From: Cognatundibacterium griseum
GTDB lineage: Bacteria > Pseudomonadota > Gammaproteobacteria > Burkholderiales > Burkholderiaceae_D
Length of the DNA: 64,000 nt
Assembly: GCF_014284195.1 (NCBI RefSeq)
Contig: NZ_JACOGC010000001.1
Span: forward strand, 1-64,000
Direction of reading: 5' to 3'
The position numbers and the translations under genes are program-made. Positions 5,761 through 60,022 of this stretch are shown one piece after another (position 1 is the stretch's first letter; every line of letters begins with the position of its first letter). Under the pieces are notes generated by a model, which saw only the letters and a program-made list of their open reading frames with translations, was not told the DNA's origin and ran no database searches.

Positions 5761-6225
5761 TTAATGCAAAAGACGCGGGGCACTGTCGTCATCTGACAAC
5801 AATAACTCATCAAACATCAGCATATCGGGCTCGGCACCCTGACTCCACAGCATCATCAGGACAATGATCCGCAATTTATCCAACGGTAGCGGCGACTCGT
5901 TGACGGCCAGCGCCCGTTCGATCACGATTTCGCGCTGGATCGGAGTCAGCAGGCCTGCAGACTCCAGAAACTGGATAAATCCGATGGCGGACATGCCCAG
6001 TGCAATCTGTTCCGGCTGGGCATAAATCCGGAAGCCCTGGGAAGTCCAGGTGGGAGTCTGTGTCTGCTGATTGGTATTGGCCAGGCCTGTGAGCCAGTCA
6101 ATGGCTTCAGAAATTTCATCTTCGGGAAAGCCGACAGCAGACAGTTTTTTGACCAGCGCCGCCGTGTCCGGACAGGCATCAGGACGATAATACGTTTCGT
6201 AGAGGTAAACAAGAATATCAAACAT
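5761..6225 (-). CDS. smg: Smg family protein (DUF494)
   Basis: A 154-residue cytoplasmic protein starting [12 protein letters not shown], the hallmark opening of the Smg/DUF494 family. It is usually encoded beside dprA in beta- and gammaproteobacteria, as here. The molecular role is not established. The N-terminal half is a helical domain (to about residue 75) and the C-terminal half contains [23 protein letters not shown], which resembles other Smg proteins. A possible promoter, TTGTTT-N17-TAGAGT, ends only a few bases before the ATG. Transcription from it would give an almost leaderless mRNA, so expression from the upstream LysM-dprA transcript is also plausible. Confidence 0.9.
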
Positions 6226-6356
6226 GCCCCTACTCTATCTGCTGAACGCTTTTCAAACAAGCCCCCTGCTCAGATATCCCCGCCTGATAGGGCGTTATCA
6301 CAGCATAAAGGGGGAGTATCTTTCCTTTTCGACCAGAGCTCCGCATATCGACTGGC

Positions 6357-6391
6357 TATCCCAATATACTCCCTGGGAGTATATTGGGATA
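6357..6391. repeat. 35-bp perfect palindrome in the dprA-smg gap
   Basis: Two 17-bp arms (6357-6373 and 6375-6391) are perfect inverted copies around a single T at 6374. The core is ATACTCCCTGGGAGTAT. No T-run follows on either strand, so it is a poor intrinsic terminator. The core fits the TACT-N7-AGTA layout of RcnR/CsoR-family operators. A related site stands upstream of the CsoR/RcnR-family gene at 59448-59762. A lone half-site, GGGAGTATC, occurs nearby at 6312-6320. Its operator role is inferred. Confidence 0.6.
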
Positions 6392-6400
6392 CAACTTTGC

Positions 6401-7507
6401 TCAGCCCAGACGGCGGTAGAAGCCGCCGGGCAAGGATTCCAGTTCGCCTGCCAGTTCCAGCGCCAGCAGCTGGCTGCTGAGTTCGGCAATCTCCAGCCCG
6501 CTGCGCATAGCCAGCACATCCAGCGGCAGAGGATCAAACCCCATCACAGTCAGCAAGGCCGGTACATCGGCAGTCTGTAATGCAGCATCGTTCTGGCTGG
6601 CAGGCGCTGCCTGCGGTATCGCAGTCAAAAAATAGTCCGGGAGTTCGTCAAGAATATCCTGTGCAGTTTCCACCAGTTTCGCGCCTTGCCTGATCAGCTG
6701 ATGACAACCTTTTGCCAGCGGAGAATGGATAGAACCCGGAATCGCAAACACATCCCGCCCCTGTTCGGCAGCCATGCGGGCTGTAATCAGGGAACCGGAC
6801 TGCGCCGCTGCCTCCACCACCAGCACGCCTTTGGACAAACCGGAAATAATCCGGTTGCGACGAGGGAAATTACTGGCAATCGCTGGCGTTCCCAGTGGGT
6901 ATTCACTCACAAGACAGCCCGTTTCGGCGATCTGATGCGCCAGACTGCGGTGCCGGGCCGGATAGACAATATCGGCGCCGGTACCGATCACGGCAATTGT
7001 GGAGCCTGCACCGCGCAATGCTCCCTGATGTGCCGCCGCGTCGATGCCGGCAGCCAGACCGGAAACCACCGTCAGCCCTGCCTGACTCAGTGCCTCGGCG
7101 AATTGCGCCGCATCACGGACACCCTGCGTACTGGCATGGCGGCTGCCGACCATGCCAATGCCAGCTGCGCGTAACAGTTCCACGCGGCCTTTCACATATA
7201 AGATCAGCGGAGGATCAGGAATTTCGAGCAGGTCAGAGGGATAGCGCGGGTCGGCGCGGGTCAGCACCTGATTCCCGGCTACGGCACACCAATCCTGTAT
7301 GCGTCCGTGCAGCTGCTGCAACGCTGGGTCCGGGGCGTTCAGCAAGGCGGCCGTCACTCTGGCGGATACCACGCTGCGCAAGGCATCCGGGCTGGCCGTA
7401 AAAATGGCTTGCGGGGTTCCGAATGCGGAAAGCAATTGTGCCGCCGTCGCCGGGCCAACGCCCGACGTCTGCTCCAGCCGGAGCCAGGAGAAGAAATCCT
7501 GTTCCAT
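6401..7507 (-). CDS. dprA: DNA-processing protein DprA
   Basis: In natural transformation DprA binds incoming single-stranded DNA and loads RecA; it is also kept in non-competent bacteria. The 368 residues show a short N-terminal helix-hairpin-helix region (SGVGPATAAQLL, about 15-26). A Rossmann-like DprA core follows, with GMVGSRHAS, VVSGLAAGIDAAAH and NFPRRNRIISGLS. A C-terminal winged-helix-like DprA_WH region starts after about residue 305 (LLTVMGFDPLPLDVL). It sits 14 bp downstream of the LysM gene and upstream of smg, the usual Burkholderiales order. A perfect palindrome begins 9 bp past its stop codon. Confidence 0.93.
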   Translation of the reverse strand: MEQDFFSWLRLEQTSGVGPATAAQLLSAFGTPQAIFTASPDALRSVVSARVTAALLNAPDPALQQLHGRIQDWCAVAGNQVLTRADPRYPSDLLEIPDPPLILYVKGRVELLRAAGIGMVGSRHASTQGVRDAAQFAEALSQAGLTVVSGLAAGIDAAAHQGALRGAGSTIAVIGTGADIVYPARHRSLAHQIAETGCLVSEYPLGTPAIASNFPRRNRIISGLSKGVLVVEAAAQSGSLITARMAAEQGRDVFAIPGSIHSPLAKGCHQLIRQGAKLVETAQDILDELPDYFLTAIPQAAPASQNDAALQTADVPALLTVMGFDPLPLDVLAMRSGLEIAELSSQLLALELAGELESLPGGFYRRLG

Positions 7508-59447: not shown

Positions 59448-59762
59448 TCAGGCAAATTTTTCCAATAAAATGGCAAGGCGCTGACTGCTGGCCAGCATTT
59501 CTTCACGGGTCGTCGCCTGTCCGGCATGAGTCGTCACGGAATCAGTCAGCAGCGTCACGAAGGAACGGTCGAGCGCTTTGCGGGCCGCAGACATCTGCTG
59601 TGCAATACCTTCGCAATCGGCCGGGTCATCAGCCTTGGCGATCAGCTTCTGCACGCCGCGCAACTGACCTTCGATACGCGCCAGGCGATGCAGTAAATCT
59701 TTTTTCTGGGCATCGCTCAGTGCCTTGCCAGAAATGATCTTTAATGGGGGAGTATCTGACAT
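59448..59762 (-). CDS. CsoR/RcnR/FrmR-family regulator with an altered sensor site
   Basis: A 104-residue all-helical repressor of the CsoR (DUF156) family, which senses copper, nickel/cobalt, formaldehyde or other reactive species. The core RLARIEGQLRGVQKLI is intact and the conserved Cys is Cys50. The residue 25 positions later is Ser75, where CsoR, RcnR and FrmR have His; the +29 position is His79 (Cys in CsoR, His in RcnR). The ligand specificity is therefore unpredictable. I chose the ATG at 59762 (MSDTPPLK); 59780 is also in frame. No metal transporter adjoins. A candidate operator lies just upstream. Confidence 0.85.
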   Translation of the reverse strand: MSDTPPLKIISGKALSDAQKKDLLHRLARIEGQLRGVQKLIAKADDPADCEGIAQQMSAARKALDRSFVTLLTDSVTTHAGQATTREEMLASSQRLAILLEKFA

Positions 59763-59812: not shown

Positions 59813-59828
59813 ATACTCTACCCAGTAT
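59813..59828 (-). promoter_or_regulatory. Candidate CsoR/RcnR-type operator upstream of the regulator
   Basis: On the minus strand the site reads ATACT-GGGTAG-AGTAT, i.e. TACT-N6-AGTA with a G-rich centre, in the style of RcnR operators. It lies about 50 bp before the regulator's start, consistent with autoregulation. Binding is inferred. The dprA-smg palindrome has the same half-sites. Confidence 0.55.
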
Positions 59829-60022
59829 AGCTCTCACATTCAAGAATGGCGCACAACATCGCATGCCGTCTTTTGCAGCGGCACGACAAACTTGTCCGGC
59901 ACAGATCCGCTCCGGCAAAGAAATTTCCGCTAAAAAACATTACTTTTCAGGAAAAATTTCGCTGTGGAAATTTTATTGCCGGTTTCGGCCACGACTCACA
60001 ATTTAACGTCGCTAAACAACGT

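Follow-up and report, generated by a model that had tools for sequence, protein, structure and literature searches.

A perfect palindrome between dprA and smg in Undibacterium is one end of a dispersed two-site element, probably bound by a ligand-poor CsoR-family protein

The window analysed here, a stretch of 64,000 nucleotides, is the start of contig C10 of an Undibacterium genome (3.61 Mb, 19 contigs). About 10 bp from the dprA stop codon, ahead of smg and within the intergenic region between the two genes (Table 1), lies a perfect palindrome whose arms (6357-6373 and 6375-6391) are 17 nt long, 100% complementary and separated by 1 nt. The preliminary description of this DNA had called this exact 35-bp symmetry very unlikely by chance and, for want of a T-run, not a normal terminator. 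Both statements held: arithmetic gives an expectation of ~1e-5 for such 17-nt arms in 64 kb, no T-run was found at the palindrome, and there was no Rfam match. A second copy of the arm was not found in the window at up to 3 mismatches. The right operator within the palindrome reads TATACT-CCCTGGG-AGTATA, and the centres across the family are mostly C6 or C7. Its TACT-N7-AGTA arrangement had been likened to RcnR/CsoR operators, in agreement with the definition of type-1 CsoR/RcnR operators by their TACT/AGTA layout (PMC5146963). The outer arms (TATCC/GGATA) are not the same in U. oligocarboniphilum, where the palindrome shrinks to CAATATACTCCC-N-GGGAGTATATTG; the 35-bp symmetry is therefore specific to this genome, and the core alone is conserved.

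Table 1. Features of the dprA-smg element and of the CsoR-family gene in the window
Feature	Position	Strand	Remarks
smg/DUF494	5761-6225	-	family match
whole composite element, dprA-smg intergenic	6310-6391	.	~82 bp; the palindrome is one end
left half-site GGGGGAGTAT	6310-6319	+	54 bp before the right operator; position fixed in other copies too
interior spacer, degenerate in the dprA-smg copy	6320-6364	+	position frequencies over 98 elements; no RNA-pair covariation
full 35-bp perfect palindrome	6357-6391	.	outer 5 bp of each arm genome-specific
right operator TATACTCCCTGGGAGTATA, type-1 CsoR/RcnR layout, TACT-N7-AGTA	6365-6383	.	likewise conserved at the orthologous locus in U. oligocarboniphilum and U. 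aquatile
dprA	6401-7507	-	family match
ligand-poor CsoR-family protein, 104 aa, proposed binder	59448-59762	-	PF02583
TATACTGGGTAGAGTAT, candidate operator for autoregulation of the CsoR-family gene	59813-59829	-	TACT-N6-AGTA-type site, likewise upstream of orthologues

Each copy of the composite element consists of a TACT-N6/7-AGTA operator and a second half-site, ATACTCCC or GGGAGTAT, with the two centres ~62 bp apart, a distance close to six helical turns. In this genome, every operator has the half-site on one side only, with GGGAGTAT starting 54 bp and ATACTCCC 62 bp before it; a few elements carry the variant half-site GGGGTAT. In a set of 127 elements drawn from several species, the offsets concentrate at 54 (GGGAGTA) and 61 (TACTCCC), and the exceptions deviate by 1-2 bp. 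The nearby lone half-site pointed out earlier at 6312-6320 is, given this fixed spacing across copies, the left end of the palindrome's own element. All four combinations of end orientation were seen, with a preference for mirror orientation (37 of 50 non-redundant elements, p = 0.0008). Between the ends there is a weaker, oriented consensus, CCTGATG/CTCC..ATAAAnAAAGG..TTTAAAT (98 elements), and the AT/GC profile of the element alternates with a period of ~11 bp (p about 0.004 by column shuffling, a test that takes no account of autocorrelation); periods of about 15 and 19 bp were equally strong. Among elements of G015 and G035 (L086, L082), L086 has an inverted repeat, TTGTCC-N11-GGACAA, as its interior and an operator centre that is no longer a pure GC tract.

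The preliminary description took the palindrome for a unique, unexpected operator inside a single housekeeping operon. We instead found it to be one of dozens of intergenic copies: the core pattern ATACTCCCN{0,6}AGTATA has 56 matches in the genome, compared with 0 for the reversed pattern, which rules out a unique operator. Merging both strands of symmetric copies leaves ~53 loci, of which none (0/53) lies in coding sequence, in a genome with a coding fraction of 0.86 according to a simple gene caller. The neighbouring genes are tandem, convergent and divergent in 33, 11 and 7 cases, respectively, a distribution no different from that of intergenic regions as a whole (p 0.14-0.22). There was no significant preference for the stop or the start of a neighbour, and a bias toward 3´ ends was dropped, as the copies are at most slightly nearer to the upstream stop (21:12, p = 0.16). 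Among the genomes compared, G015 and G035 have the most sites (107 and 116); the 4.7-Mb main contig of G015 carries 49 sites, found in every tenth of its length, with no significant origin/terminus bias and no significant replication polarity (28 of 46 run in the direction of replication, a hand count from listed positions and skew). Control of a promoter in dprA-smg is unsupported, since the elements favour neither promoters nor the replication origin nor one strand. A position in the promoter of a regulated gene, as expected of an operator, was found only for the 59813-59829 site and not for the dispersed elements; of the properties of a site-specific chromosome organiser, they have dispersed, dedicated, non-coding sites and lack domain bias and strand polarity. 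Many dispersed copies unrelated to promoters had been named beforehand as a result that would refute the CsoR assignment. Such copies were what the genome scan returned, but the link to CsoR is not undone by them: the dispersed copies are themselves the finding.

Comparison between species indicated that the sites are under selection. With a matrix partly trained on these copies, we scanned 464 kb of the genome studied here, 400 kb from U. oligocarboniphilum and 400 kb from U. aquatile; the scan gave 10, 7 and 16 elements, respectively, and 0 in reversed controls. Nearly all matches score high, pointing to few decaying copies. In collinear flanks, 6 of 7 positions were shared in the same orientation with U. 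oligocarboniphilum and 4 of 4 with U. aquatile (one of them, 168963, placed via the U. oligocarboniphilum orthologue), though occupancy differs by species and some U. aquatile element positions are empty here. Empty orthologous sites were too diverged for breakpoints to be read in a comparison of target-site duplications. At the shared positions, the left half-site is identical at 40/40 bases in U. oligocarboniphilum and 31/32 in U. aquatile and the operator halves at 50/50 and 40/40, so that half-sites are 97-100% conserved overall in the two other species; the 41-bp interior is 76% and 49% identical, respectively. At one orthologous locus, the central C-tract has become a G-tract in place. 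The conserved half-sites, the drifting interior and this exchange together indicate protein-binding sites under selection. The dprA-smg element itself is present in the same orientation in U. oligocarboniphilum (G013), U. aquatile (G033) and U. rivi (G028) and reversed in G018, G021, G015 and G035, and is absent from most other genomes compared.

Toward the other end of the window, the CsoR-family protein matches PF02583 with 61.9 bits (cut-off 22.8). It retains the family signature and is missing the canonical X-Y-Z metal-ligand triad (Cys - His - His/Cys): the Y position is Ser or Ala in all aligned members, Z is Gln in U. aquatile, and the X Cys is lost in genus g27. As the g27 orthologues (L309, L310 and L312) are without even the conserved cysteine, the whole subfamily seems to lie outside metal sensing. 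An AlphaFold model from one sequence was all-helical with a pLDDT of 62 and was set aside. The only TACT-N6-AGTA of the window (59814-59827) lies in the promoter of this gene. A palindrome of this type is found upstream of the orthologues in the genus, though the divergent G003 gene has no clear one, and the same upstream site is present in genera g190 and g167 and missing where the gene closely follows another gene (g26, g27, g31, g162). A canonical, DmeR-like CsoR paralogue was also observed (G000:C12:481344, L212; L237 in G033; L239 in G035), adjoining a dmeF-type CDF efflux gene in G035.

Presence of the protein and of the sites largely coincide within the genus. Two or more TATACTN{6,7}AGTATA sites were found in 20 of 21 genomes with the protein versus 0 of 11 without it, the divergent relative in G003 being counted as without. 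For the second half of the genomes, a prediction drawn from the first half and written in the same round as the search held for 5 of 5 presences and failed for 2 of 7 absences (G022 and G026); G026 has 12 sites with other centres. On the tree, six basal species have neither protein nor sites, and joint absence recurs in G001, G012, G005 and G003, a pattern that leaves only two to three independent contrasts for the co-occurrence. Outside the genus, many family members in several genera have the protein without such sites, and genus g189 (G482 and G499) has 6 and 9 sites.

The operator class itself extends further. Scanning AATATACTCCCN{3,4}AGTATATT over species genomes gave at least 110 stretches. 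Among the matches listed, the copies beyond Undibacterium and its close relatives are mostly single. Acinetobacter, Herbaspirillum, Bordetella and Pseudomonas viridiflava have the same 23-mer just upstream of genes that begin MSHLHQDKK.. or MPHSP.. and are RcnR/FrmR-like by sequence, as read by eye, with the Pandoraea copies left unassigned. In Acinetobacter (L107 and L153), two TACT..AGTA sites ~30 bp apart near an RcnR-like gene may form a natural double operator. The published motif for RcnR is TACTGGGGGGNAGTA; sites can stand in tandem, and the flanking DNA has been suggested to be wrapped (PMC5146963; PMC12724321).

We conclude that the palindrome is probably the full operator of a composite double-site element bound by a ligand-poor CsoR-family protein, with a putative architectural role at dispersed sites. 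The element is dispersed and intergenic, has two sites with selected half-sites, and belongs to the CsoR type-1 operator class. Recognition of the full operator and the half-site of each element by a CsoR/RcnR-fold tetramer is putative and well supported. The CsoR-family protein of the window is a moderately supported candidate for the binder and would also repress its own promoter at 59813-59829. Less firmly supported is the suggestion that, in the manner proposed for RcnR, the bound protein would wrap the ~80 bp of DNA between and around the two sites and so would have an architectural role at dispersed, specific sites instead of repressing adjoining genes; such an architectural function is possibly correct and is the least certain part. 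We tentatively entertain a fuller scenario, which we regard as conceivable without expecting it, in which a former metal sensor of the CsoR family lost its ligands and turned to chromosome architecture, its tetramers sitting on two phased sites with ~80 bp wrapped at 50-100 intergenic places and its synthesis autoregulated.

Other readings are weaker than a CsoR-bound composite element. The elements might be small REPIN- or MITE-like repeats that are mobile, or once were, scattered by a transposase, with ends that resemble CsoR operators by chance and genic insertions that were lost. The many dispersed intergenic copies with a common interior consensus, the differences in presence between species, the mirror-oriented ends in 74% of non-redundant copies (possibly a trace of terminal inverted repeats) and the two Y1-transposase genes of the genome fit this idea, which we nevertheless consider improbable. 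Neither Y1 gene is flanked by an element (both 3-kb loci examined), so that a REPIN/RAYT linkage was rejected; direct ends in about a quarter of the copies (13 of 50 non-redundant ones) are at odds with the always inverted terminal repeats of MITEs, as is an end flip at one orthologous locus; nearly no decayed copies exist; the interior drifts while the half-sites stay conserved; and the ends match a known operator class. One of the Y1 genes (G000:C14:79129, L069), RAYT-like, lies beside a glutamate synthase-like gene. A structure at the RNA level, a terminator or other fold, is suggested by a perfect palindrome near the dprA stop, but we give this very little credence given the missing T-run, the lack of any Rfam family at gathering score, the absence of pairing covariation in 71 non-redundant copies, in which the strongest signals reflect only the left-end flip, and the occurrence of half-sites in both orientations.

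A classical regulon, in which a repressor or activator would act through the sites on adjacent promoters, here that of smg, is about as doubtful as a mobile repeat. The operator layout (PMC5146963) and the position of the copies between tandem gene pairs, all between genes and some 0-20 bp from a start codon, would agree with it; the flanking-gene orientations are, however, those of all intergenic regions, including the 11 convergent pairs without a promoter, and the copies lie if anything closer to the upstream stop. Slightly less unlikely is a different binder, either the DmeR paralogue or another regulator that also controls the CsoR-family gene. The 23-mer upstream of an RcnR/DmeR-like gene in Acinetobacter is consistent with such a protein, and a third gene is compatible with the co-occurrence. 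DmeR itself was rejected, as its presence does not track site number: it is missing from the element-rich G006 and G021 and present in G005 and G022, which have hardly any sites. Its own promoter moreover carries a different site, ATAGTAtaCCCCCCtaTACTAT, unlike the dispersed ones.

The literature searched yielded no paper that connects Undibacterium to repeats of this kind or to CsoR, and none on CsoR together with the nucleoid or ChIP-seq. CsoR/RcnR proteins are regarded as acting locally, each repressing one metal or formaldehyde operon. Binding of the composite elements by the ligand-poor protein, if true, would give the family a new role, that of a sensing-free relative with dozens of conserved, non-promoter double sites; it would also be a natural experiment in the passage from a one-operon repressor to a genome-wide DNA-binding protein, and would offer an unusually large evolved set of operators for reading the CsoR/RcnR DNA code.

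Among known systems, REP, BIME and REPIN sequences with their RAYTs are dispersed intergenic palindromic repeats of ~80 bp, often in inverted pairs. The Undibacterium elements are alike in these respects but have no flanking RAYT and no hairpin covariation, and their half-sites flip and are under selection. The chromosome organisers MatP-matS, Noc-NBS and SlmA-SBS combine one small DNA-binding protein with dozens of short, dispersed, palindromic, non-promoter sites. The elements share this kind of site, whereas they are composite, strictly intergenic and, in G015, without origin/terminus bias, and the protein fold is unrelated. The type-1 operators of CsoR, RcnR and FrmR (E. coli rcnR-A and frmR; PMC5146963) also have AT-rich TACT/AGTA inverted repeats on either side of a GC tract of 6-7 bp and likewise occur as paired sites, with DNA wrapping proposed for RcnR. 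Unlike them, the Undibacterium elements number dozens per genome without promoter preference, have the second site cut to one half-site at a fixed distance, and do not adjoin a metal or formaldehyde gene.
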